The translations under genes and the position numbers were made by a program. The notes beneath the pieces were generated by a model, which was not told the origin of the DNA, searched no databases, and saw only the letters and a program-made list of their open reading frames with translations. 31,039 bases of DNA. Source: a virus. Numbering within the stretch: the first letter of the stretch is position 1; every line of letters begins with the position of its first letter. Positions 3,401 to 24,176 of the stretch are shown piece by piece. The stretch is taken from positions 1-31,039 of the IMG/VR virus record IMGVR_UViG_3300007735_000600; one strand, written 5' to 3'.

Positions 3401-4828
3401 TTAGAATAAATCATTCCAAGTGCTACCATTATAGCAACACAATTTGTTAGTTGTAGTGTCGTAAACTACCAATCCCGCAGCGGGTGTGGCAATGGCGTTC
3501 TTTTGGGTTGTGGTCATTCGGGGTGGAAGGAATCCTTTGCTTGTGCTATTGACTTGAAGCATTGCAGATGCAGCAACCGTATCGTATCCTACATCAGAAA
3601 TACCAAAACCAAACGATGCCCCAGTAATTCTATATTTAATTGAACCATTGGATAAATTGTAACTATTCCAATCGTTACCACTTAAAAAATCACCAACGTT
3701 TGCATTACCTACAAAGTTAAATGCACCTCTATTGAATGTACCATCATCTTTAACTCTTATTGATTCACTCCCCACACTATTCTGCACCAACAACGATGTA
3801 GTGGCGGAGGTTGAGCCGCTGCCACGCACACCCAATCTTGCACCGAGTGATGTTGTTCCGTTTCCAAAAGTTGTGTTAGAATCAATTACTGCGGTTACTG
3901 TTCCCGCAACTGAAAAATTGTGGTTAGTTCCACCATAATTCATTTTGAACCAAGCATTACCTGGCCACAATGAATTCAAAAACGCCCCATTTGTTGAACT
4001 AAACGCAGATATTAAAGCGCCTTGCGATGCAGTACCCGCCAAAATAGATGTTTGATTGCTAAACGCTTGTGGATTTGTTGCATCATCCGTTACAATTTGC
4101 AAACGACTTGATGGTGCATTCGTACCAACCCCCAACCTTTTATTGGTGTTATCCCAAAAGAAATTTGAAGCATCACTTGCAAACGCTGAACCATTTGAAA
4201 ACTGAATCGCACCTGATACACCTGAAGGACTTGCAGAAATTACAATATCTCCACTACCGAGTAATGAAGTTGAGTTGATTGTTTTGATGTTTGTGCCACT
4301 TACCAATGTCGCCTGTACTGCAACATCACCCGAACCCAACAACGAAGTTGAATTAACGGTCTTTATATTAGTTCCGCTTACAAGCGTATCTTGTTTGCTT
4401 GTTGCCAATCCACTGTACTGCGAGTTGGTTGCATTGTCTCCGGTGTTTGTTCCGCTTGTGTTGCCAACAACTACCAATTGAGCATCGGTTACATATCTGC
4501 GGTTTGTTGAATCTGCAATGTCTGCGGTGGTTGCATCCGCTCCAGCCGTTACCAAACCTTTTGCATCGTATGTGATTTTCGTTTTGGTCGCTCCGGTGAT
4601 GGCAGCGTTTTCGTCAACCTTGCCATCCAAAGCGGTTTGGGTTGCACTTGAAATCGGCTTGTTTGCATCCGATGTGTTGTCTACATTATTCAGAGACAAT
4701 GCCGTCTTCAACGCAGATGGTGTGATTTTCTTCGTTTCCGCTGCTGAAGTATCAACGATTGGAAACAAATCCGATGCCGTGTCAACCGTGACAATGGTCG
4801 TTAATTGGGATATTTTTTGGTCTGCCAT
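3401..4828 (-). CDS. Tail fibre / receptor-binding-like protein (475 aa)
   Basis: Starts MADQKISQLT and has DLFPIVDTS, an N-terminal motif common in phage fibre proteins that attach to the virion. Residues 35-150 contain trimeric-fibre-like repeats (LNNVDNTSDANKPIS; TNRRYVTDAQL). A tandem repeat built on TLVSGTNIKT...LLGSGD lies at about 148-195. Further on are RLGVGTNAPSSRLQI and a C-terminal KGFLPPRMTTTQKNAIATPA followed by GLVVYDTTTNKLCCYNGSTW, the usual end of Bacteroidota phage and secreted fibre-like proteins. It most likely binds the host surface. Its start overlaps the stop of the 148-aa gene by one base. Confidence 0.8.
   Translation of the reverse strand: MADQKISQLTTIVTVDTASDLFPIVDTSAAETKKITPSALKTALSLNNVDNTSDANKPISSATQTALDGKVDENAAITGATKTKITYDAKGLVTAGADATTADIADSTNRRYVTDAQLVVVGNTSGTNTGDNATNSQYSGLATSKQDTLVSGTNIKTVNSTSLLGSGDVAVQATLVSGTNIKTINSTSLLGSGDIVISASPSGVSGAIQFSNGSAFASDASNFFWDNTNKRLGVGTNAPSSRLQIVTDDATNPQAFSNQTSILAGTASQGALISAFSSTNGAFLNSLWPGNAWFKMNYGGTNHNFSVAGTVTAVIDSNTTFGNGTTSLGARLGVRGSGSTSATTSLLVQNSVGSESIRVKDDGTFNRGAFNFVGNANVGDFLSGNDWNSYNLSNGSIKYRITGASFGFGISDVGYDTVAASAMLQVNSTSKGFLPPRMTTTQKNAIATPAAGLVVYDTTTNKLCCYNGSTWNDLF
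4244..4387 (-). repeat. Tandem 26-residue repeat (78-bp period) inside the tail fibre gene
   Basis: Residues 148-169 and 174-195 of the fibre are almost the same: TLVSGTNIKTVNSTSLLGSG and TLVSGTNIKTINSTSLLGSG, followed by DV or DI. The period is 26 codons. Such repeats form beta-spiral fibre shafts and change length by recombination. Confidence 0.85.
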
Positions 4829-5274
4829 TAGAGTATGATTTTATCACCGCTTTCTTGAAGGAGAAAATCCCCATTCTCAAGCAACATGAAGAGTATTTGT
4901 GTGGGTTGTTCTATCTCGTAAATCTTCTCATTCAATGTCACTTCGTAGTATGTCCGAGTCACATCAAATTCAACTTTCAAGATTCCGCTCTCAACCAATT
5001 CATTTGCCAATGCTGGAGACAAATTGCTTGGGGATGTTTGAGCATATACTTGGTATTCAAATTCACCAGCATCAAGAGTGAAGGTGCTACCCTCCACAAC
5101 TGCAAATTCATTGTATCGTTCTTTGTGTGTTGAGATGTCCGACAAGATGACGGTTGTGACCTCATTAGTCAAACGATGTGTGAACGCAAACAAGAAGTAT
5201 GGATTGGCAATCGTGACTTTTTCGGTCAGCGTTAAATACCAATTCTTTGATTCTGCTTTTTCAATTACCAACAT
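4828..5274 (-). CDS. Conserved structural protein (148 aa), probably tail or fibre associated
   Basis: The sequence SKNWYLTLTEKVTIANPYFL, then the FAFTHRLTNEVTTVILSDIS region and FTLDAGEFEYQVYAQTSPSN, is a pattern I recall from Bacteroidota phages, where it accompanies tail genes. It is a beta-sandwich-like protein with no catalytic motif. It begins a new transcription unit: a terminator (5308-5334) and a TTG-N20-TATTTTG promoter lie directly upstream, with GCTATTT 7 nt before the ATG. It is coupled to the fibre gene by a 1-base overlap. The function is inferred from position only. Confidence 0.7.
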   Translation of the reverse strand: MLVIEKAESKNWYLTLTEKVTIANPYFLFAFTHRLTNEVTTVILSDISTHKERYNEFAVVEGSTFTLDAGEFEYQVYAQTSPSNLSPALANELVESGILKVEFDVTRTYYEVTLNEKIYEIEQPTQILFMLLENGDFLLQESGDKIIL

Positions 5275-5279
5275 CTCTA

Positions 5280-5309
5280 CAAAATAGCGATGCGAATTTT
5301 ATGTAACAA
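5280..5309 (-). promoter_or_regulatory. Promoter for the fibre-lysis-portal unit (TTG-N20-TATTTTG)
   Basis: On the minus strand TTG (5309-5307) is followed by exactly 20 nt and TATTTTG (5286-5280), close to the Bacteroidota consensus TTTG/TAnnTTTG. The box is part of GCTATTTTG and lies 7 nt before the ATG at 5274, so the transcript would be nearly leaderless. It begins within the U-tract of the upstream terminator. Confidence 0.55.
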
Positions 5310-5334
5310 AAAAGGGAGAGCATTTGCCCTCCCT
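5308..5334 (-). terminator. Intrinsic terminator after the capsid / tail-tube-like genes
   Basis: The minus strand reads AGGGAG...CTCCCT as a 6-bp stem, with two further GC pairs in the loop region around ATTT/AAAT, directly followed by six T residues. It lies about 25 nt past the stop of the 168-aa gene. It is the clearest rho-independent terminator in the genome and separates abundant capsid and tail transcripts from the fibre-lysis-portal unit. Confidence 0.85.
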
Positions 5335-9970: not shown

Positions 9971-12676
9971 TTAGTGTTGTCCAGTTATAAAGTAATCAGT
10001 ACCATCAGTCACAAAAGTATGTGCTGACCATTGTGAATTTTGGGTGTGTGTGTCGTTGCCATCAATCTTTGCAGTTCCTGTTGTGTCTATAGTTACTTGA
10101 TTTCCTGATGTAATCTTTTTAACAATGAATGTTTTGCTACTCAACCCACTTGGATTTGGGAAAGTAATTGTGACGCTTCCAGCAGTTGTATCAACCAAAA
10201 ACATATAATCATCTTTGGTTGCGGTGTAGTTTGCCGTGATTGTTTTCACCAATCCACCACTCAAATACGCTGGATACATCTCGTAATTTCCAATGTAGAG
10301 TGTGTCGGGTTTTGTAATTACAAAGTCATTACACACAATCGCTCCGCTCCCATCGGTACCTGCTTGGAATGTGGTGTTTTTGGAAACAACCGCAAAACTA
10401 TCAGTCACATTGTTGTTCTGCACAATGCCGTCACCTTGAACAATACCTCCACCGCCTTGACTCACGCCAACGGTTACACCTTTGATTCCAGGTTTGATTG
10501 GGATATCTCCACCGGGATAGATGTCGGATTCTGCATCGGTTTGACCAGCAGTTCCAGCACCGATTGTCTTTTGTACGATGGTCGCTGGTTCAATAAATTG
10601 TGCTAACAAGAACTCGCATAAGTACACGCCATCTTCAATCGGGTTGTAATCCACGATTTGATTCAACCGCCAATACTGACCTTCAAAGAAGTACGCATCC
10701 GAAAATGACAAGTTTAGCCAATCCTTTGGAGTGATGCGGAAGTATGCTCTCAACAACTTTGAGTTTGCACCTGTAATCTCACTCAAGAAGCGATAATAGT
10801 AATTATTGACAAGGTTTGAGTTGGTGTACTTATACCCAGCACCAAGACCAATCTCTCTCGGCATCCCAAAGTTGATGTCAAAGGTTGGATTGCTTATTGA
10901 ATCCAAGTGAATTGTCAAAGGGATAGAATAGCGGTTTTGATAGTTTAAACCAACACCAGCATATTGTGCGTATAGCATCCAGTTGACTCCACTAACCACA
11001 CCACCAAAATACAATATCCTCAAGTCACCGTCTTGGTAGTTTGGGACATACGACAAGACAAAGTTCTTTTGGTTGTTGTATGAGTTTATTTGTGTAGGCG
11101 TGAAGGCAATTTGAATCTTCTTTTCGTTCTTGATGAACTGATTGTCAATTTTGTATGTCCGACTTCCGTATGTGGTTTGGTAGGATTCCTGATACAACAC
11201 ATTCGCCTCATCCTTTCCCTCCTTATATTGGAAGACATATGGATTGGCTTCAAGTTCGCCCATTGGCACAATTTCCACAGGTTGAGAATAGTCAAGTTTG
11301 GCAGTCCAATCAACATTGTCACCATTGAAGAACTCATCTCGTGGAACGCAACGCAACTTCTTTGGATTGTCCTTGTCGGATTCAATATACAAATTGAACA
11401 TCTTGACAAACGACATCAGCATCTCGCTTTGCTTTACTTCCGAGTTAAGGAATGCGGAGAAGTCAACCGTCTCACCATAACCATAAGTGTATGCGGATTG
11501 GTTGCTCTCCATATTTGAACCCACTCCGATGTCAACTTGAAATTGTGAGTTGGTGAGATTGTACAAATTGGCTTGATCCCATACCTGAGCCAAGCGGATG
11601 TCAATTGTATTGCTTCCAAATACTGCAAGGGGCGAGAAGTATAATTGAACATTGAACGCTGGTGAGCCAAAGTCAACCGTCACCGTGCTTGTTTGTTTCA
11701 ACACGCCATTGACATACAACCCAAATACCAACCAAATATCTTCTTGATAAGTTGGTGTGTATCCTGTGGATGCGTAGTTGATGGACAAGTCCAAGTCAAA
11801 GACATAACTCCCTCCGACTGGTGCGGTGTATTGACCGGTTGTGTTGTTGTAGTTGTTGCCGTTGTCGTAGTTGCCCGATGTAGAATCGTTTTGAAATATC
11901 AGGATTGAGTTTAGGTCAAGCGATTGTGCTGTTGTTGTCCGTGATGCTTTGAATCTGCGTGATTCTAATGTCGCAGCGTTGGCAGTCAGCGATGATGGTG
12001 CTGGAATAACCAAGCGTTTGAACCTATCCGAATTGAAGAATGAATCGTTGGTGTATGTGAACCCAGCATTGGTGAAGATTTTGTCAACCACCGTCTTCGC
12101 ATAGAGTGAAGGAGTGAACTGACTCGCATCCCAAATTGAGATGTTTGTCGGATGCCCTTTGTCAATCATAGCGTACATATAGCCATCGCCATATGCAAAG
12201 GATTGTGGACTTCCGTTCTTGTAGATTTGATTTGACCACGAGTCAATGATGTTGCCACTTGACAATGTGTGGTTGTATTCGCTGAAATCTAATTGATTGA
12301 GTTTGCGTTCTGCTATGGTCGTAAAGAAGTCCGCAGATTGTCCGTGGCAAGTCACCTCGTAGGTGATGTGCGTTGAGTCATCCACCTTTATTGACAACAA
12401 CCTCAAGAACCCTCTCAACTGCTCAACTCCGTCTGCGTAGATGATGCAATCGGCTTTGATGTTTGGGTTGAACGATGTCCCATAGACCGTTTGCTCTACC
12501 TCAAAAAGGTGAGAGAATATCTTGTTGTTGGCGGATGTGCCGGGAATCTCAATTGTCTTTGACCACTCCGATTCTCGTGATTCAGGTTCACGAATATCTG
12601 CAATGGATCGTGTGATAAATATGTTTGGGTTTTGGAGTATGCCCAAAGGTTGCCCATCAACGAGAATCTCTATCAT
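9971..12676 (-). CDS. Large tail tip / baseplate-hub-like protein (901 aa)
   Basis: Starts MIEILVDGQPLGILQNPNIF and continues ITRSIADIREPESRESEWSK, TIEIPGTSANNKIFSHLFEV and GVEQLRGFLRLLSI, a pattern I recall in tail proteins of Bacteroidota phages near the tape measure. The middle is beta-rich with SMSFV-like helices (KQSEMLMSFVKMFNLYIESD). Gly-rich linkers at about 720-775 (VSQGGGGIVQGDGIVQNNN) separate a C-terminal domain ANYTATKDDYMFLVDTTAGS/VTITFPNPSGLSSKTFIVKK that resembles the tip domain of receptor-binding proteins. Likely hub plus receptor contact. It overlaps the 375-aa gene by 4 nt. Confidence 0.7.
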   Translation of the reverse strand: MIEILVDGQPLGILQNPNIFITRSIADIREPESRESEWSKTIEIPGTSANNKIFSHLFEVEQTVYGTSFNPNIKADCIIYADGVEQLRGFLRLLSIKVDDSTHITYEVTCHGQSADFFTTIAERKLNQLDFSEYNHTLSSGNIIDSWSNQIYKNGSPQSFAYGDGYMYAMIDKGHPTNISIWDASQFTPSLYAKTVVDKIFTNAGFTYTNDSFFNSDRFKRLVIPAPSSLTANAATLESRRFKASRTTTAQSLDLNSILIFQNDSTSGNYDNGNNYNNTTGQYTAPVGGSYVFDLDLSINYASTGYTPTYQEDIWLVFGLYVNGVLKQTSTVTVDFGSPAFNVQLYFSPLAVFGSNTIDIRLAQVWDQANLYNLTNSQFQVDIGVGSNMESNQSAYTYGYGETVDFSAFLNSEVKQSEMLMSFVKMFNLYIESDKDNPKKLRCVPRDEFFNGDNVDWTAKLDYSQPVEIVPMGELEANPYVFQYKEGKDEANVLYQESYQTTYGSRTYKIDNQFIKNEKKIQIAFTPTQINSYNNQKNFVLSYVPNYQDGDLRILYFGGVVSGVNWMLYAQYAGVGLNYQNRYSIPLTIHLDSISNPTFDINFGMPREIGLGAGYKYTNSNLVNNYYYRFLSEITGANSKLLRAYFRITPKDWLNLSFSDAYFFEGQYWRLNQIVDYNPIEDGVYLCEFLLAQFIEPATIVQKTIGAGTAGQTDAESDIYPGGDIPIKPGIKGVTVGVSQGGGGIVQGDGIVQNNNVTDSFAVVSKNTTFQAGTDGSGAIVCNDFVITKPDTLYIGNYEMYPAYLSGGLVKTITANYTATKDDYMFLVDTTAGSVTITFPNPSGLSSKTFIVKKITSGNQVTIDTTGTAKIDGNDTHTQNSQWSAHTFVTDGTDYFITGQH

Positions 12677-13800
12677 TGGCGTTGGCGTTTTGATTCAAAG
12701 GAGTACGACATATCAAGCTCAATGAAGAATGCATTGTCTTGGATGTGCTTCTTGACTTCGTAAGTGTTTGCGTCTATATTCACCGCAACCAATGTTCCAT
12801 CGTAAGCGTACACCACAGGTGATGTGAACAAATCCAACAACCACTCGCTCTCGGCTTCAGTTATCCAATTGCTGAACAACTTGACCTTGTGAGTCATATT
12901 GGTGTCATAGGTCTTTTGTTTAAATGCCGATGTTGTGTATCCGTATGTCGCACCCAATGTGTATGGATTTGACTTGAATTGCTTTCGTTGGATGTCGTAA
13001 GTGTCTCTCCTTACCTTGTTGAATCGGAATGAGTCAAACCCTCCCAATGAGTTCAAGAAGAACAAATCGGTTGTGTCATATTTGCTACACTCGTCAATGA
13101 TGTTCACTCGGTAGGTTTCGGACAACACCGTACTGCTCAACTTCAACTGGATGTCGTAGTATGTCGCACCGCTTGGGATTGTCAATTGACTTCCTGATGG
13201 GATACGAACGACCTTTGTGGATGGCAGATTGATTGTTTGTGTGGATGCGTCCGAGTAAGTCACAAGGGCAGTTGTTGCCGTGTTGCGGATAGCATAGAGC
13301 CAATCCTTTTGAGTTCGGTGGATGGTCTTGCTACGGATAGGAGTCAAGAACAAACCATCGCCATCCATCGTGTATTGACCAGCATAGTTGACCAAGTCAA
13401 TTGGATTCAATGCAGCGTTCCAAACGCTTCCAGTTGCGGATGTCAAATTGGTGTACTCAACAACGGTACCTGTAGCAGATGTGGAGTATTCATAGCCGAA
13501 CTCAACCTTGTAGTCCATAATTGAACTTGTGCAACCACTTGCTGCACTATCGTTGTAGTTCCAATCGTGGGAGACATAGTTCTCAAGGATGCGTCCGATA
13601 TTGAACACGCCCTTGTTGGTGCTTCCGTAGTAGATGGGTGCTTTGAGTTTGGCAAGTGATGTTGTGTTCTGCTTGACCTCTGCAATGAACTTGAAATTGT
13701 CCTTTGTGTAGATGCCACCTGATGACTCCGTAATTACAAAGTTGGTATCGTTATACGCTGGAGCGTACTCGTTTGGTTGTTGTGTGATTGATAGTGCCAC
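12673..13800 (-). CDS. Tail protein, distal-tail-like (375 aa)
   Basis: GTG start at 13800, chosen because it is the first start after a TTTG-N20-TATTTTC promoter and lies 6 nt after a GCTATTT box. Starts MALSITQQPNEYAPAYNDTN and has SGGIYTKDNFKFIAEVKQNT, NIGRILENYVSHDWNY, TPIRSKTIHRTQKDWLYAIR, YRVNIIDECSKYDTTDLFFL and SNWITEAESEWLLDLFTSP. It is beta-rich and has no enzyme motif. It is translationally coupled to the 901-aa tip protein. Homologues I recall are unannotated tail proteins in Bacteroidota phages; the distal-tail role is inferred from position. Confidence 0.65.
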   Translation of the reverse strand: MALSITQQPNEYAPAYNDTNFVITESSGGIYTKDNFKFIAEVKQNTTSLAKLKAPIYYGSTNKGVFNIGRILENYVSHDWNYNDSAASGCTSSIMDYKVEFGYEYSTSATGTVVEYTNLTSATGSVWNAALNPIDLVNYAGQYTMDGDGLFLTPIRSKTIHRTQKDWLYAIRNTATTALVTYSDASTQTINLPSTKVVRIPSGSQLTIPSGATYYDIQLKLSSTVLSETYRVNIIDECSKYDTTDLFFLNSLGGFDSFRFNKVRRDTYDIQRKQFKSNPYTLGATYGYTTSAFKQKTYDTNMTHKVKLFSNWITEAESEWLLDLFTSPVVYAYDGTLVAVNIDANTYEVKKHIQDNAFFIELDMSYSFESKRQRQ

Positions 13801-13804
13801 GATA

Positions 13805-13835
13805 GAAAATAGCGGTTAGGTTTATGCGTCCCAAA
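13805..13835 (-). promoter_or_regulatory. Late promoter for tail genes (TTTG-N20-TATTTTC)
   Basis: TTTG (13835-13832) is followed by exactly 20 nt and TATTTTC (13811-13805), the latter part of GCTATTTTC. The GTG start at 13800 lies 6 nt past the GCTATTT box, so the transcript would be almost leaderless. The spacing equals that at 5280, 7351, 24177 and 26786. Confidence 0.55.
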
Positions 13836-13868
13836 TCAACCTATAGGTGTAGTTTATGACGGATAGAT

Positions 13869-13884
13869 TCAACTTTAAAGTTGA
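13869..13884. promoter_or_regulatory. 16-bp perfect palindrome, candidate operator
   Basis: TCAACTTTAAAGTTGA is its own reverse complement. It lies about 35-50 bp upstream of the late promoter's TTTG element, a position suited to an activator or repressor dimer. Confidence 0.5.
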
Positions 13885-13887
13885 TTT

Positions 13888-13906
13888 TTTGTGATATTGT
13901 CACAAA
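13888..13906. promoter_or_regulatory. Inverted repeat TTTGTGA-N5-TCACAAA
   Basis: Seven-base arms with a 5-nt spacer (TATTG), symmetrical and only 3 nt from the 16-bp palindrome. It resembles the half-site TGTGA-N-TCACA used by CRP/FNR-type dimers, although the 5-nt gap between these arms is shorter than the canonical 6-nt spacing. No T-tract follows, so it is not a terminator. Confidence 0.45.
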
Positions 13907-13989
13907 TATCCAACGATAAAGTGTCATATAACAACCAAAACAATATGCTTTTGTCCCTTTTATGGCAAGTTATATGTGTAAGGGTATAA

Positions 13990-14001
13990 TACCGCTCGGT
14001 A
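13990..14001. repeat. Palindrome TACCGCTCGGTA, copy 1
   Basis: TACCG and CGGTA arms with a CT centre. An identical copy starts exactly 50 bp further on (14040). Each is preceded by an AT-rich run (TATAA and TTTAT). Paired identical sites at a whole number of helical turns are typical of protein-binding sites. Confidence 0.65.
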
Positions 14002-14039
14002 GAAATTTTCGGAAAAATTCATGCAGATGATACATTTAT

Positions 14040-14051
14040 TACCGCTCGGTA
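14040..14051. repeat. Palindrome TACCGCTCGGTA, copy 2
   Basis: Identical to 13990-14001, 50 bp away. See copy 1. I saw no third copy elsewhere in the window. Confidence 0.65.
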
Positions 14052-14094
14052 CACGATTTCGTGAACACTCGTAACAAATTTACACGACTATTTG

Positions 14095-14852
14095 TTACAA
14101 CATCTCGTTCAAACAAGCCACGACATATGCGTTGAATCCCTTTGCTGCGGACTGCTCCAATCGTTTCTGCCGTTCTTTTGTCTTGGCTTTGTAGAATGCG
14201 ATTGTGTTGAGGAACTCTATCAACGGCATCTGCAAGATAGCGTCCCACTTTGTTCTATCCCCTTTGACAATCTTGTCAACTAACTCCAGCCACGCAATTG
14301 GACTTACGCTTCCGCTTTCAATTGGTTCATCTCCTCCTTCAAATAGGTTAGGATAGTTTCCAATAGTTTGGGATAAACTGCCGAAAAAAAAACTGCGTAC
14401 GAATACGCATAGGTAACTGGAAGCGACAAAAACAATTCACACTTGTCTTGATAGTGTGCTTGTGCATCCGTGACCTTCTTTGTCCTACCGAAGAAGTCAA
14501 CCTCGTAAGAGAGCAACGCCATCACCTTGTGGAGCGACTCAATCATATCTCCGTTGAACACTTGCTGAAGTTCAATAAAGTGGTGACCACAAATCTCGTT
14601 GGTTGTCTTTGCCAATCGGAAGTATCTGCCACGATGCTTGAACATAAATTGAACAGGTTGGTTTGGGAGTGTGTTTAAGAACTCCAACTTCTTCAGTTCG
14701 CTTGTCAGCTCGTCAATCGGCATTGACTCAACCTTGTCCATTGACCAATCGTTGACGATGGCAAGTGTGTTCATTGTCTTTTCTATGTGAGACATATCAC
14801 GACAAGAGTGAATCTCTTGCAGTTGGTAAATGCTTATGTTATTCCATTTCAT
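14095..14852 (-). CDS. Tail assembly chaperone, long product by -1 frameshift (252 aa, gpGT-like)
   Basis: At the T9 run a -1 slip after residue 156 opens a frame of 96 further codons that ends at 14095-14097. The extension reads like real protein: NYPNLFEGGDEPIESGS, then SPIAWLELVDKIVKGDRTKW, then LQMPLIEFLNTIAFYKAKTK. Family members I recall carry an equivalent W..L....G.......MPL.EFLN..AF.KAK C-terminus in a single frame. The extension has no ATG before its residue 53 and no ribosome site, so it needs the frameshift. The alternative is a one-base homopolymer error in the assembly. By analogy with gpGT the long form would bind the tape measure. Confidence 0.6.
14304..14852 (-). CDS. Tail assembly chaperone, short (0-frame) product (182 aa)
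   Basis: The ATG at 14852 (MKWNNISIYQLQEIHSCRDM) is one base after the terminase stop; an upstream ATG at 14900 lies inside the terminase gene and is less likely. The opening W(N/S)xI(S/T)xxQxQEI, then IEKTMNTLAIVNDWSMDKVE, matches a chaperone-like family that I recall upstream of tail genes in Bacteroidota phages. The 0-frame crosses GTT TTT TTT TCG (14393-14382) and ends 26 residues later in LKEEMNQLKAEA. It is expected to assist tape measure folding, as lambda gpG does. A longer -1 frame product is described separately. Confidence 0.65.
   Translation of the reverse strand: MKWNNISIYQLQEIHSCRDMSHIEKTMNTLAIVNDWSMDKVESMPIDELTSELKKLEFLNTLPNQPVQFMFKHRGRYFRLAKTTNEICGHHFIELQQVFNGDMIESLHKVMALLSYEVDFFGRTKKVTDAQAHYQDKCELFLSLPVTYAYSYAVFFSAVYPKLLETILTYLKEEMNQLKAEA
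14384..14393 (-). promoter_or_regulatory. Slippery site G-TTTTTTTTT (-1 frameshift candidate)
   Basis: Nine T residues in minus sense, read GTT TTT TTT T in the 0 frame. Both the P-site and A-site Phe-tRNAs can re-pair after a one-base backward slip. I see no clear pseudoknot downstream, though the region was only checked by eye. Confidence 0.6.
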
Positions 14853-14853
14853 A

Positions 14854-16041
14854 TTATGCGAAGTAAAAAGTTCCGGGACGATTATGTGACTTGCAATCAA
14901 CCGCCAAAGCCAACGCCATTACGCAATCATCATATAGTCCACTAGGTGCGGTGTATCGTACACCTGTACGGGTATACTCAAACTCAAAGTTCTCCATCTC
15001 ACTTCCGATTGGTTCTTCGGGAAAGTAGACCGAGTTTTGCTGAACGGAGAGAACGAGTCCCTCAATTAGTTGTTGCTTGGATTGTGATGTGAACTTGAAT
15101 CCCTTGACCCTTTGACATACCCTTTGGATTTGCTCCACGATAGGATCGCCCACACCGGTTGAGTCAATGAACGCTGGAGTGTTTCCAATCAACCGAATGA
15201 TTCTCTCTTGTGTGATGCCCCAATCCGCTTGGAATCGGTCAACATACGCACATTGATTGTTCGCATCCATCCCCACGATGACGGTATAATCCGAGTATTT
15301 TGCAAGGTCAATTCCCCAAGCGACAACCCTACCCTTTGACACAGGTCGGTAACATCTGCGAATGTTGTCAATTCCAAAGGGGTTGGTCTTGTCATCCGCT
15401 GGTTCTGCCAAGTACAACTCGTTAAAGACATTTTCAGGAAGGTCACGCTTGGCTTGTTCTACCTCCTCAAGTTTGAGAATGCCTTCCTTGACTGCATCAT
15501 AGGCGGTTATCTTGAAATAGCGGTAGTCACTCTCTCCACTCCTTGCTCTCTCTCCTAACTTGTAGAACCAATTCTTCTTGCCTTTGACATTCCCAATCAA
15601 TTTGCACTTGCCTTGTGTAGCAGTTAGCGTTGAACGCATCGCATACCACGACTCTTCCCTCATACGAGATGCCTCATCAATGACGGCAGCATACACATCG
15701 TCACCATATAGGTTGTCGGGTTTCTCTCCTGATTTGAACTCTATTCGGGATCCAGTTGGAAGCGTGAGTAGTAACTTGGTTTCGTTGCTTTGGAAAAAGT
15801 CACGGTCATTCACTTGTGTTTTCATCCTTCGGAATGCTATCTCTGCTTGTTGGTATACTGGAGCAACCCACCAAACTGATTGTCCATCCTTGCATTTGAG
15901 AGCCTGTTCAAACAACCATATGATGTGCGATGCCGTCTTTCCGGTCTTTGTACTCGCAGCAGTTATCGTGAACCTCTCCTCACAATCAAGGATGGCTTGT
16001 TGGTAACTGGTCACATATGGTCGCTTGTAGGTTATTTGCAT
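14854..16041 (-). CDS. terL: Terminase large subunit (395 aa)
   Basis: Packaging motor: ATPase plus nuclease. The ATPase part has a Walker A at residues 29-36 (ASTKTGKT), a coupling region AFRRMKTQVNDRDFF and Walker B AAVIDEAS near 120. The C-terminal RNase-H-like nuclease shows WGIDLAKYSDYTVIVGMD (first Asp), AFIDSTGVGD (second acidic site) and GLYDDCVMALALA (third). The length is slightly short but within the family range. The start overlaps the glycosyltransferase stop by 10 nt, and the stop is one base before the tail chaperone ATG. All catalytic landmarks are intact. Confidence 0.93.
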   Translation of the reverse strand: MQITYKRPYVTSYQQAILDCEERFTITAASTKTGKTASHIIWLFEQALKCKDGQSVWWVAPVYQQAEIAFRRMKTQVNDRDFFQSNETKLLLTLPTGSRIEFKSGEKPDNLYGDDVYAAVIDEASRMREESWYAMRSTLTATQGKCKLIGNVKGKKNWFYKLGERARSGESDYRYFKITAYDAVKEGILKLEEVEQAKRDLPENVFNELYLAEPADDKTNPFGIDNIRRCYRPVSKGRVVAWGIDLAKYSDYTVIVGMDANNQCAYVDRFQADWGITQERIIRLIGNTPAFIDSTGVGDPIVEQIQRVCQRVKGFKFTSQSKQQLIEGLVLSVQQNSVYFPEEPIGSEMENFEFEYTRTGVRYTAPSGLYDDCVMALALAVDCKSHNRPGTFYFA

Positions 16042-19386: not shown

Positions 19387-19637
19387 ATCTTGGTTTCTAA
19401 AAGTGCAACGATAACGGTTGAGATGGATGCGTACAAGATACCCACAAGTCCGTATTGGTGTACAAAATAAGCAACACCCATCCACCACGATAAGCAGAAA
19501 GCACAATCAAGTGGTTTCATTCGCTTCCACTTGGAGTAATCACTTCCATACTTCCACCGCTTTAGGATGTCCGCTGGTTTGCCAAAGTTGACAATGATGA
19601 TGGATAAACACGCTATCCCAATTATTTCGTTGTACAT
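19383..19637 (-). CDS. Membrane protein with CAFC motif (84 aa)
   Basis: Starts MYNEIIGIACLSIIIVNFGK: a hydrophobic segment at residues 4-18. A polar part with LDCAFCLSWWMGVAYFVHQY follows, then a second hydrophobic segment at about 64-80 (GILYASISTVIVALLE). The C-x2-C before a membrane segment is a feature I recall in a group of small Bacteroidota phage membrane proteins. It overlaps the sigma-like gene by 16 nt and the 88-aa gene by 4 nt. Function unknown. Confidence 0.65.
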   Translation of the reverse strand: MYNEIIGIACLSIIIVNFGKPADILKRWKYGSDYSKWKRMKPLDCAFCLSWWMGVAYFVHQYGLVGILYASISTVIVALLETKI

Positions 19638-20131
19638 CGTTCTTTCATTAGTTTCACCACCCTCAACACTTCACGGACGGAGATGTCGGTCTTTCTATGG
19701 ATCGCCCTTGCAGACATTCCTGAACACCACATCTTGAAGAGTTCCTTCTCATAGAAATATGCTGATTCGGTGACTTGGTTTATTTTGTTGATTCGTTCAA
19801 GTTCAATTGTTTCTTCTTCTTCTCGCTCAAGCAGTAGGTCAGGTTCTTCAGCGAAGTCCAACTCGTAGACATCATACTGGTCATATATGCGAGAGTTCCC
19901 AAAGGGATGCCGGTTGCCGTTGATAGCCAAATACAAGAGACGGATTGACCAAAATTGGATGTATCCGTCTCGGTATATTTTTTCAATTTGCTCATCAGGT
20001 TTCTCAAGTAATGTCAAAAAGTAGAATTGATACAACTCCCTTGCCAACTCTCTATCTTTGGCGATATTCCTCGTGGCTTGGGTGAGCCAATCAGCTTTGG
20101 AAAGTTCCAATATGATGTCGGCTTTGTTCAA
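19622..20131 (-). CDS. Sigma-factor-like regulator with C-terminal HTH (169 aa)
   Basis: TTG start at 20131 (NKADIILELSKADWLTQATR follows); no ATG is available because a stop lies upstream in frame. Residues 20-70 (ELARELYQFYFLTLLEKPDE, GYIQFWSIRLLYLAINGN) resemble region 2 of small sigma-70-like proteins of Bacteroidota phages. An acidic spacer EREEEETIELERINK follows, then a region-4-like HTH at about 138-165 (GMSARAIHRKTDISVREVLR). It probably redirects host RNA polymerase to phage late promoters. It stands between replication and packaging modules, where such switches usually sit. A CAAATATA (TATATTTG) -7 match lies at 20150-20157 but without a TTG at 20 nt. Confidence 0.65.
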   Translation of the reverse strand: MNKADIILELSKADWLTQATRNIAKDRELARELYQFYFLTLLEKPDEQIEKIYRDGYIQFWSIRLLYLAINGNRHPFGNSRIYDQYDVYELDFAEEPDLLLEREEEETIELERINKINQVTESAYFYEKELFKMWCSGMSARAIHRKTDISVREVLRVVKLMKERCTTK

Positions 20132-20179: not shown

Positions 20180-20677
20180 TTACACCTCAACAACTCCTCC
20201 TCCGTCTTGTAGATGGAGATGCTCTGCGTTAGTCCTTTCTTGCAAGTAATTATCCAATAAGGCAGATGCTTTCTTATAGTGTTCGGTTGAGATTCGGTCA
20301 TATCTTATCAGGTCAGTGTATACATTTACGGCATTAATGATGGATGAATGGTCACGGTGTACGATGTAGCCAATCCCAGCGAAGGTCATCTTCAAATGCT
20401 TCCTACATAAATAGCAGAACAAGTGTCTTGCATAGACGATGTGTTGTTTGCGGTTTTGACTGATTACTTGGTCGGGAGTGACATCATAGATTTGACAAGT
20501 GACTCTCATTGCATCGCTCCAGTCAGCATCGGTGTTGTTGATGTCGCACTTTGGACGGATTATTTCTTGTTTTAATCTTCCGAGTTCTCGGTTGTGTTGG
20601 TTTGTCATTTGGACAATTGTCAATCGCAATCTGCGAATTTCTTGCTTCAGGTTGTGTACTTGTTGGTAGTGGTTCAT
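20180..20677 (-). CDS. DnaA domain IV-like DNA-binding protein (165 aa)
   Basis: The N-terminus (MNHYQQVHNLKQEIRRLRLT to RELGRLKQEI) is a coiled coil. Residues about 58-130 match the C-terminal DnaA-box-binding domain: YDVTPDQVISQNRKQHIVYA, RHLFCYLCRKHLKMTFAGIG, YIVHRDHSSIINAVNVY, the last containing the DHSSI signature (DHSTV in DnaA). There is no AAA+ ATPase, so it is a domain IV-only protein. It may mark a phage origin or act as a regulator. Its leader TAAACAAATAAAACT equals that of the capsid gene. It overlaps the next upstream gene by 4 nt. Confidence 0.75.
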   Translation of the reverse strand: MNHYQQVHNLKQEIRRLRLTIVQMTNQHNRELGRLKQEIIRPKCDINNTDADWSDAMRVTCQIYDVTPDQVISQNRKQHIVYARHLFCYLCRKHLKMTFAGIGYIVHRDHSSIINAVNVYTDLIRYDRISTEHYKKASALLDNYLQERTNAEHLHLQDGGGVVEV

Positions 20678-21704: not shown

Positions 21705-22939
21705 ATCTTCTCCTCATACATTGTCCGACTACCTGTGAAGGTTGTTGGAATTGTGTGACATTCTCCGTGACGATTCTTTGCAATGATGACCTCTGCCTCT
21801 TCCACCTCAACCTTCTCACCTGAATAGTATGCCGGGCGAAAGGGAAACATAACGACATCGGCATCTTGTTCAATGCTTCCGCTCTCCCTGATGTCGCTCA
21901 ACATCGGTCTCTTATCGCTTCTCTCCTCACATTTGCGTGATAATTGGGCAAGAACAATGACGGTGATTTGCAACTCCTTTGCCAATAGTTTAAGGTTACG
22001 GCTTATCTCTGCTATCTCTTGCTCTCGGTTCTGCTTTGTGCCTTTGATTAATTGGATGTAATCAATCACGAGAAGGTCAAGTCCGTGCTTTGCTTTGTGA
22101 ATCTTTGCTTTGGATTTGATTTGCTGAATCGTGCAGTTCGGATCATCATCAACAAAGAACTCAACCTTTGAATTGTTCACCTTGTCGCATAGCGTTATGA
22201 CCTCAATCTCTTTCAGGTTAGCATTCCGAATCTTCCAATTTGGGATGTCTGCAAGAAGTGACAAGTATCTCTTTGCAAGTTGCTCGGATGACATCTCTAA
22301 ACTGACAAACAATCCTTTCCCTTCCAACTTTCCAAACTCATACATCAACGACAAAGCAAGAGCGGTCTTTCCTTGTCCGGGACGAGCAGCCATTACAACC
22401 AAATCACCAGCGTTCCAACCTCCCAAGATTCTATCAAGAGAAATCCATCCGCTTTGCTTACCTGTTATCCTATCGCCTCGCTCAATTGCTTGGGTGATGT
22501 TGTCAACGGCTTGACCACTCAACTTGTGGATGCTTACTGGATCATTGATTGTTGTGAACTTCGTGTTGTCAATTATGCTCTGCGTTTGTGTGAGCAATTC
22601 TTTCAAATCACTTGTCAGGTCAATAGAAGCGATTTGAGCAACGAACTCTTTGTGTAGGTACTTGGCTTCCAACTTGGGAATGTAACTGCTTACATTCGCC
22701 ACATTGCTAACATTCTGCCCAATGTAGATGACACGCATTCTATCATCGTGGTTCATCCCTTTGGTCAATGACATATAATCAATTGCCTCGTTACCATAAT
22801 AAGCAACCGACATCCGCTGGATGACTTCACGGTGAAGGGGTTGTTCAAACCATTGGTGTTTGATTCTTGGAAGCAATGCTCTTGTCTGCTCATAGAACAA
22901 AAGTTGTGCGAGTATATAATCTTCAAGTTCGTTATTCAT
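21701..22939 (-). CDS. dnaB: Replicative DNA helicase, DnaB type (412 aa)
   Basis: Unwinds DNA ahead of the fork. The ATG at 22939 (MNNELEDYILAQLLFYEQTR) gives a normal DnaB N-terminal domain and overlaps the upstream gene by 8 nt; an ATG 11 codons earlier is less likely. The RecA-like domain shows Walker A MAARPGQGKTALALSL, SLEMSSEQLAKRYLS, Walker B LDLLVIDYIQLI, ITVIVLAQLSRKCEER and RPMLSDIRESGSIEQDADVV, then the C-terminal KNRHGECHTI. The linker NDPVSIHKL precedes it. No primase is fused or nearby, so host DnaG must serve. Confidence 0.93.
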   Translation of the reverse strand: MNNELEDYILAQLLFYEQTRALLPRIKHQWFEQPLHREVIQRMSVAYYGNEAIDYMSLTKGMNHDDRMRVIYIGQNVSNVANVSSYIPKLEAKYLHKEFVAQIASIDLTSDLKELLTQTQSIIDNTKFTTINDPVSIHKLSGQAVDNITQAIERGDRITGKQSGWISLDRILGGWNAGDLVVMAARPGQGKTALALSLMYEFGKLEGKGLFVSLEMSSEQLAKRYLSLLADIPNWKIRNANLKEIEVITLCDKVNNSKVEFFVDDDPNCTIQQIKSKAKIHKAKHGLDLLVIDYIQLIKGTKQNREQEIAEISRNLKLLAKELQITVIVLAQLSRKCEERSDKRPMLSDIRESGSIEQDADVVMFPFRPAYYSGEKVEVEEAEVIIAKNRHGECHTIPTTFTGSRTMYEEKI

Positions 22940-23546
22940 AGTCCGACAAATTAAATACTTTTTTGTGAACAACTTGTTGACTCGGTGAATTATTTTTCAG
23001 GTTGTTAAGTTTCCAAGTTCTAACGGATGCTTTCCAATCCTTCATCTTGTTCTTGCCTACCATCCATCCATTTGCTTCGTAATGATTTAACCAGTTCTCT
23101 GCGATGTCGTTCATACCTTGTTCTCTCATATATTCTTTGAGTTGTTCAATGGTTGGTTTTTGGAATCGCACTACCTTCTTTTTTACAATTAAATCTTCAA
23201 TTTCATTTTCATTTTCCATATGTTCAACATATGATGAAGATGTGTTATTCATATCTTCTTTCTTCTTACGATTGTTTCTCCTTGATTCGGAGTAGGCTTT
23301 TCGCTTATCAACCTCCTCTTCCAACCTGATATTGTAGAACTTGCCTTGCTCATCTTTTTGAAATTTAGTGAATACATCTTCGTCATATGAACCACATATG
23401 TGCAACATATCTTTTTCGGATAAATGACCTTTTTGATGTTGGATACAAAGCAAGGTGATGAACTTGCCTTTTTGCTCCATTGACATCAATAATGTCCCGG
23501 TCAAGAAGTCCGAAGAATAAAACAGGAACGCTGGATCCTTGCTCAT
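22932..23546 (-). CDS. Replication-organiser-like protein, DUF1376-type N-terminus (204 aa)
   Basis: Likely recruits the helicase at the origin. The N-terminus MSKDPAFLFYSSDFLTGTLL, then SMEQKGKFITLLCIQHQKGH and LSEKDMLHICGSYDEDVFTK, resembles the winged-helix start of phage replication initiators. The middle is a basic, low-complexity linker SESRRNNRKKKEDMNNTSSS. The C-terminal part (PTIEQLKEYMREQGMNDIAE, NHYEANGWMVGKNKMKDWKA) is the common end of phage replisome organisers that precede DnaB. The stop overlaps the helicase start. Specific family membership was judged by eye. Confidence 0.7.
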   Translation of the reverse strand: MSKDPAFLFYSSDFLTGTLLMSMEQKGKFITLLCIQHQKGHLSEKDMLHICGSYDEDVFTKFQKDEQGKFYNIRLEEEVDKRKAYSESRRNNRKKKEDMNNTSSSYVEHMENENEIEDLIVKKKVVRFQKPTIEQLKEYMREQGMNDIAENWLNHYEANGWMVGKNKMKDWKASVRTWKLNNLKNNSPSQQVVHKKVFNLSDYE

Positions 23547-24067
23547 ATGTAAATGAATCTAATTGTTTTGTATGACATAAAGATTCTCATTGAGTGTCTT
23601 GAATATGGTTCGTTTAATACACGACAAGCTTCACTCAATGAATTGTATTTTGTGCCTGTATGCAAATCAAGAACTGGTTTGGAATGATGTAATTTAGCAG
23701 ATGCAGCACATTTTTTTCTTTTGTCTTCAAACAAACCTGTATCCCAAGCGTGTTGTATATTCTCTTTAATTGTCACCCATTCCAAATTGTCAATGTGATT
23801 GTTTAACTTGTTTCCATCAATGTGATTTACTTGTGGCTTATTAGCAGGGTTTGGAATAAACGCCAATGCAACCAATGTGTGAACCCTAACCTGTTTACAT
23901 TTTTTATCTTTTTGACTGATAAAAATTGTAGGATAACCTCTTGATTGCAAAACAGGTTTCAAAATTCGTTCCTTACCAAACTTTAAACTCTTGACTCTCC
24001 CCCAACTGGAGACATAGTACTCGCCATTGCATTCCGCAATAGGTTTCCAAATTTCTTTTGTGTTCAT
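23543..24067 (-). CDS. HNH homing endonuclease with NUMOD4 and NUMOD1-type modules (174 aa)
   Basis: Selfish nuclease. ATG at 24067 (MNTKEIWKPIAECNGEYYVS) is chosen because the NUMOD4 motif IW(K/R)PI begins there; the frame remains open to an ATG at 24160, so a 31-residue extension is possible. NUMOD4 (residues 5-30, SSWGRVKSLKFGKERILKPV), HNH_3 core (RVHTLVALAFIPNPANKPQV, NHIDGNKLNNHIDNLEWVTI) and a C-terminal NUMOD1-like part (KPVLDLHTGTKYNSLSEACR) are all seen. The core residues H, N and H look intact. It has its own promoter and leader. It overlaps the replication-organiser gene by 4 nt. No intron boundary is obvious. Confidence 0.9.
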   Translation of the reverse strand: MNTKEIWKPIAECNGEYYVSSWGRVKSLKFGKERILKPVLQSRGYPTIFISQKDKKCKQVRVHTLVALAFIPNPANKPQVNHIDGNKLNNHIDNLEWVTIKENIQHAWDTGLFEDKRKKCAASAKLHHSKPVLDLHTGTKYNSLSEACRVLNEPYSRHSMRIFMSYKTIRFIYI

Positions 24068-24078
24068 TTTTACCGCAT

Positions 24079-24102
24079 AAAAAAAGCCTCCGTGATAGAA
24101 GG
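24079..24102 (-). terminator. Possible intrinsic terminator / attenuator in the homing endonuclease leader
   Basis: The minus strand reads CCTTC-TATCAC-GGAGG, C and then seven T. The stem is only 5 bp with one wobble pair. It lies between the promoter at 24177 and the ATG at 24067, so it would attenuate rather than end a gene. Confidence 0.4.
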
Positions 24103-24176
24103 TCTGCGGGAACACATCTACCAAGAAGGCAAGGTTTTTTGATTTTGGACAAACCCGCATTTGTCAATCAACTATA

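Follow-up and report, generated by a model that had tools for sequence, protein, structure and literature searches.

A candidate regulatory junction in a small uncultivated phage: a putative late promoter beside an interchangeable cassette of paired dyad sites

Short intergenic sequences that recur among phages have been described as the PeSL mobile regulatory cassettes of T4-type phages, in which promoters and stem-loops lying between genes are common to phage genomes; a part in modular gene shuffling has been proposed for them (Arbiol et al. 2010; Comeau et al. 2014; both cited in PMC4503421). PeSLs are units of an early promoter and a stem-loop shared between T4-like phages. The locus analyzed here is alike in concept, given that intergenic sequence is common to different phages in different gene contexts. 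It differs from PeSLs in that the shared core is a phased, operator-like pair of sites (S1-S2) accompanied by several dyads, found at one locus per genome beside a structural operon, and in that phages without a common terminase or capsid share it. Inspection of the S1-S2 unit recognized neither an early-type promoter nor a terminator hairpin with a T-run, and the cassette is not classed as a PeSL because the defining promoter-plus-stem-loop unit was not found. As for recombination, the cassette displays only its mosaic outcome.

Phage operator arrays bound by cooperative or looped repressors are exemplified by OL and OR of phage lambda. The present locus resembles these in containing several imperfect palindromes that share a consensus and are set at a fixed distance, but here no cognate repressor was found and no integrase was noted, and the sites are far from the promoter and common to unrelated phages. 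A further point of reference is the sigma-ABfr promoter of Bacteroidetes, with its boxes TTTG at -33 and TANNTTTG at -7 (PMC6847099).

The gene-free stretch, its neighbors and its variation

The window (the whole 31,039-nucleotide stretch analyzed, IMG/VR record IMGVR_UViG_3300007735_000600) has an exact 127-bp terminal repeat, indicating that the assembly is circularly closed, and all its genes are on the minus strand. Its sole noncoding stretch of at least 90 bp lies within positions 13,801 to 14,094, bounded by a GTG start codon at 13,800 and a stop codon at 14,095-14,097, in agreement with the preliminary description, in which this was the only gene-free region; stop codons break all six frames of the stretch, which disposes of the concern that it might encode a protein.

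The first gene after the gap (12,673-13,800, minus strand, GTG start) is a tail or structural gene matching phrog_35281 (E 1.6e-12), the function of which is unknown, and is followed by large structural, tape-measure-like and capsid genes. On the upstream side, the gap is bordered by the stop of a gene pair (14,095-14,900, minus strand) comprising ORFs 14,304-14,900 and 14,095-14,384, which, judging from sequence, probably encodes a tail-assembly chaperone with a programmed -1 frameshift. The gene ending at 14,095 is most simply read as a -1 frame extension of ORF 14,304-14,900; the window's own slippery heptamer, U_UUU_UUU, lies in a T9 run at 14,384-14,392, and an in-phase U_UUU_UUU or U_UUU_UUC together with an open -1 frame of at least 70 codons was found in 71 of 74 homologues. 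A slippery heptamer with a -1 extension is the layout of the lambda G/GT-type tail-assembly chaperones. The minus strand of the window also encodes a stand-alone DnaA C-terminal (DNA-binding) domain protein (20,180-20,677; PF08299, E 3e-17) and carries a NUMOD4/HNH homing-endonuclease-like gene (23,543-24,160), the homologues of which in relatives are frequently interrupted by stops. A Toxin_BN_H Pfam match of 22,932-23,546, weak and far under the cut-off, was dismissed as chance.

The dyads previously reported in the gap are largely as described. The perfect 16-bp palindrome TCAACTTTAAAGTTGA is present at 13,869-13,884 (module G) and the TTTGTGA/TCACAAA hairpin TTTGTGATATTGTCACAAA, with 7-bp arms, at 13,888-13,906 (module F); the 12-mer TACCGCTCGGTA does occur identically at 13,990 and 14,040, 50 bp apart, but its copies are imperfect palindromes with 5-bp arms around a non-symmetric CT center (10 of 12 positions symmetric). 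Among 2000 Markov-1 simulations of 294 bp each, a 16-bp palindrome arose in 1.05% and any repeated 12-mer in 1.1%, and an identical palindromic 12-mer present twice was never obtained (0/2000). The total number of dyads is mildly raised (4 versus 1.3 expected, P 0.04), a rise not seen in most relatives.

Relatives were collected by scanning IMG/VR with the tail protein, which yielded 80 loci, in which the gap preceding the tail gene measures between 30 and 1150 bp. The palindromes listed in the preliminary description are gained, lost or altered even at 94-99% identity of the tail protein. The core of module G, CAACTTTAAAGTTG, is found in 13 gaps, with one-base variants in 9 further gaps, and is absent from others; module F (TTTGTGA-N5-TCACAAA) keeps its arms in 17 gaps with differing centers. 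Module E, an A/T-rich block running from CATATAACTTGCCATAAAAGGGAC to TTATATGAC (13,924-13,976, minus strand), is the most conserved block among close relatives, occurs as variants in most long-gap relatives, and is present as an inverted copy in the unrelated record L084. Module A (14,071-14,098, minus strand), an inverted repeat GTAACAAAT-N10-ATTTGTTAC that overlaps the stop codon of the upstream gene, recurs with variable loops in many long-gap relatives, and stems of the D module carry paired changes, with C-G in 26 instances and A-T in 8. In several relatives, the longer gap accommodates a terminator hairpin along with one or two small genes. This insertion hotspot upstream of the tail gene was observed in L031, L034, L036, L046, L047, L051, L052 and L053, where several of the small genes have TANNTTTG boxes 4 nt before the ATG and are followed by a AGAGAGAC/GTCTCTCT terminator.

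At the other extreme, the gap measures only 30 bp in G015 and 42 bp in G006, both of them closed relatives with 127-bp terminal repeats. Neither has a noncoding stretch of at least 90 bp elsewhere in its genome, and when cassette sequence of L057 served as a blastn probe, G015 gave no significant match and G006 a trace of just 20 bases. The palindromes are part of an interchangeable, fast-changing cassette that is dispensable in some relatives. The preliminary description held that free variation of the palindromes among close relatives would speak against a function; most of them do vary in this manner, but the promoter-like element P1 and the geometry of the site pair do not.

Promoter-like elements P1 and P2

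P1 (13,806-13,835, minus strand) is a bipartite promoter-like element, TTTG-nn-ACG-N13-GCTATTTT-N5-GTG, which ends 5 nt short of the tail gene's GTG. Among the 78 IMG/VR loci of relatives with enough sequence, TTTG (-35 to -32) and TATTTT (-11 to -6) are kept in 77, and ACG (-29 to -27) and GC (-13/-12) are likewise 99% invariant, the remaining positions being free; P1 is retained even where the entire gap is 30 bp long. The layout of TTTG and TATTTT at the P1 distance was found at 1 of the 2094 gene-strand start codons in the window. The sole relative without a promoter at the gap end, L024 (3354), is cut directly before ATCGTGG and may be an assembly chimera or a true deletion. A second copy of the promoter form, P2 (TTTGTTACATAAAATTCGCATCGCTATTTT, 5281-5310, minus strand), stands 6 nt ahead of the start codon (ATG) of gene 4828-5274; six of nine other near-complete relatives examined have it too. 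Late-gene control, one of the roles suggested at the outset, gains support for part of the region, since P1, abutting the tail-gene start, is invariant in all but one of the 78 loci.

P1 and P2 are probably promoters with almost no leader, because TTTG and TANNTTTG at -33 and -7 are the promoter boxes of Bacteroidetes. The resemblance to sigma-ABfr promoters (PMC6847099) consists in TTTG and a TA-containing box at matching spacing, and some relatives of the window have a perfect TATTTTTG. P1 differs in its invariant ACG after TTTG and GC before TATTTT, in often lacking the terminal TTG, and in leaving almost no leader. As to the Bacteroidetes consensus, 77 of 78 loci have TTTG-N20-TATTTT, usually departing from TANNTTTG at the two final positions of that box. 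Several features count against the promoter reading: the -7 box of P1 lacks the host TTTG end (TATTTTCT versus TANNTTTG); the usual gap of 4-5 nt would place the start site at or just inside the GTG; and most mRNAs of F. johnsoniae have leaders (PMC6847099), which speaks against a leaderless transcript. The combination of invariant ACG and GC, frequent loss of the final TTG and a nearly absent leader suggests a phage-specific promoter variant.

The protein encoded at 19,622-20,131 (minus strand) resembles sigma factors and is a candidate reader of P1 and P2. Weak matches to Sigma70_r2 (region 2) were obtained for four of its eight homologues, and the PDB fold matches of its predicted model (pLDDT 73) were mostly ECF sigma factors, the best at E 0.016 and none below E 0.001, so that by both sequence and structure the assignment as a candidate sigma factor is a weak one.

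The S1-S2 pair in relatives and in unrelated phages

In gene orientation (minus strand), the repeated 12-mer reads TACCGAGCGGTA. S1 (TACCGAGCGGTA, 14,040-14,051, minus strand) is 50 bp from S2 (TACCGAGCGGTATTATACC, 13,983-14,001, minus strand), which consists of the 12-bp dyad and an ATACC half-site and has variants in the gaps of relatives; in close relatives, the partner is TCCCTATCGGGA at -49. Variants of the TACC-NANC-GGTA dyad occur 26 times in the gaps of relatives (23 kb) and not once in about 809 kb outside them. Partner sites, defined as matching at least 9 of 10 consensus positions within 80 bp of S2, were sought in 24 non-redundant contexts and were found at offsets of 49 (8 contexts), 50 (4), 15 (5), 16 (1) and 39 (1), and at no others; a 49-50 bp partner is thus present in 12 of 24 contexts, with about 0.9 hits expected summed over all offsets. 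In a further record, L104, the offset is 51. Some of the spacers between S1 and S2 are related to one another, so that the independent spacer groups number about eight rather than twelve.

The preliminary description had argued that the 50-bp spacing matters, and this holds to the extent that partners at 49-50 bp recur in unrelated phages with differing spacers. Other shared modules shift by hundreds of bases relative to S2, which S1 does not; of 13 unrelated carrier records, 10 have a single copy of module C (TGCATGAATTTTTCC, 14,011-14,025, minus strand), which in the window lies between S1 and S2, with no more than one mismatch and at varying distance from S2. Shared descent could carry the spacing along; the spacing has nonetheless outlasted the spacer sequence. 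The orientation of the pair relative to flanking genes flips, being opposite in L096 and L104 with respect to a GroES-like gene and in L103 and L094 with respect to a MYIDH gene. Spacing and orientation flips together favor a protein-DNA assembly over an RNA structure, and the likeliest role of the two TACC-NANC-GGTA sites is to hold two dimers of a single DNA-binding protein in a fixed arrangement. The distance from S1-S2 to P1, about 190 to 470 bp among relatives, is too variable for a simple proximal operator.

Exact matches to the element TACCGAGCGGTATNATACC were obtained in 38 IMG/VR stretches, contigs of 44-69 kb among them, and a relaxed form adds more records, one of them on a 222-kb contig; all the carriers are metagenome contigs. 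The window's terminase and capsid were found in none of 10 unrelated carrier records tested, some of which are fragments, with both controls positive. When the relatives' gaps were compared by blastn with 16 unrelated carrier loci, there were 418 hits, the strongest at 3.6e-28, and reversed controls gave 2; the 12-mer was confined to one locus per genome in all unrelated carriers examined. In the unrelated phages L103, L104, L110 and L163, the noncoding DNA just before the dyads has repeated G tracts (6-9 G) that lead into TATATTTT or CTATTTTT. No similar DNA was found in deposited phages and plasmids, and the 12-mer is absent from the literature searched. An exact search for S2 in bacterial and archaeal genomes returned 8 hits in scattered taxa, about the chance level, and S2 was accordingly rejected as a host repeat. 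The hosts are probably Bacteroidetes, judging from the promoter type and from methyltransferase matches: a methyltransferase near the site in one unrelated carrier has its best matches in Bacteroides phages.

Several proteins were considered as partners of the cassette. The phage's own LacI-like HTH protein was rejected as the S1-S2 binder, being absent from unrelated carriers and present in relatives without the cassette. The HNH endonuclease (23,543-24,160) was rejected as a mobilizer; it correlated with the site in nine genomes, yet exceptions were found, with the site but no HNH match in G017 (a 25.7-kb fragment) and L097 and the converse in G008. A C5-methyltransferase common to many carriers is absent from G001 and G016, which carry consensus sites, and was likewise rejected. 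DnaA-domain proteins, encoded in 6 of 14 unrelated carrier records and also in relatives without sites, are a lead only.

Interpretation of the junction

Any explanation has to accommodate sequences that are conserved, a spacing that persists, a cassette that unrelated phages share and carry in either orientation, and the fact that some relatives do without it. Our preferred reading, which we hold with about as much belief as doubt, is that of a regulatory junction, combining a phage late promoter with an exchanged operator cassette that includes a phased pair of dimer sites. It would lie between the packaging and tail-chaperone genes and the structural operon of this small phage. From the late promoter, of the form TTTG-nn-ACR-N13-GCTATTTT, transcription would start at the start codon or at most a few bases from it, yielding an mRNA with almost no leader; the promoter would be used twice per genome, as P1 and P2, firing late and probably read by the phage's own sigma-like protein. 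The upstream dyad cassette would be a replaceable part exchanged with unrelated phages by recombination, and S1-S2 would serve as cooperative or looped operators for two dimers.

A related possibility, which we consider less likely than not, is that the two-dyad module itself, as yet undescribed and with some 49-50 bp between its sites, passes among unrelated phages as a plug-in binding platform for one, perhaps host-encoded, protein; that phages with different genomes thereby use one common regulatory circuit is proposed equally tentatively. Under such a model, the 39-bp partner offset would place the sites of one lineage a helical turn closer together.

Recombination cassettes without a regulatory role, acting as homology for gene shuffling or persisting as selfish palindromic repeats, are an unlikely explanation, although they would fit the mosaic sharing with unrelated phages in both orientations, the gain and loss of modules, and the cargo genes inserted at the site. 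Neutral shuffling leaves unexplained both the 49-50 bp spacing maintained over different spacers and the paired changes in the arms, and selfish repeats, unlike the sites observed here, would not be expected at one locus per genome and at about chance numbers in host genomes, as transposed repeats behave otherwise. It is improbable that the hairpins act as an RNA element (terminator, leader or small RNA). On either strand the fold is mildly more stable than that of shuffled sequence (z -2.1 and -2.5), and some relatives have a clear terminator hairpin (ATTCCCAACCATTGGGAATTTTTT in L004), but the stability is similar on the two strands, there is no Rfam match, a terminator would need its T-run on the other side of S2, and the orientation flips relative to flanking genes; a tRNA search of the region found none.

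Origin of replication and packaging signal, the other roles put forward in the preliminary description, fare worse, as the lack of the cassette in G015 and G006 argues strongly against an essential site of either kind at this position for the family. An origin, in which the dyads would be initiator sites, possibly for the phage's DnaA-domain protein, is decidedly improbable: there is one A/T-rich, dyad-rich noncoding locus per genome, DnaA C-terminal-domain proteins are encoded by the phage and several unrelated carriers, and the sites spaced by 15 bp are iteron-like, but the two closed relatives, with gaps of 30 and 42 bp and no cassette copy elsewhere, demonstrate that the array is not required in every member and keep the DnaA-domain protein without it, and the window has no DnaA box and, on the GC-skew check proposed earlier, no skew extreme at the gap. 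A packaging site (cos or pac) is barely credible, since, although the terminase large-subunit gene ends about 0.8 kb before the gap, the closed relatives that miss the array have terminases 79-84% identical and unrelated phages carry the site without a related terminase.

The retention of a spacing of about 50 bases in unrelated phages suggests that phages trade ready-made protein-docking DNA. If the preferred reading of a regulatory junction is confirmed, unrelated phages would exchange regulatory DNA with exact geometry, separately from genes, and S1-S2 would provide a concrete probe for a regulator common to uncultivated phages. P1 and P2 could anchor a family-wide late-promoter motif and, if likewise confirmed, would establish a class of late promoters for a phage group of which no member is in culture, making its transcription program predictable from sequence.
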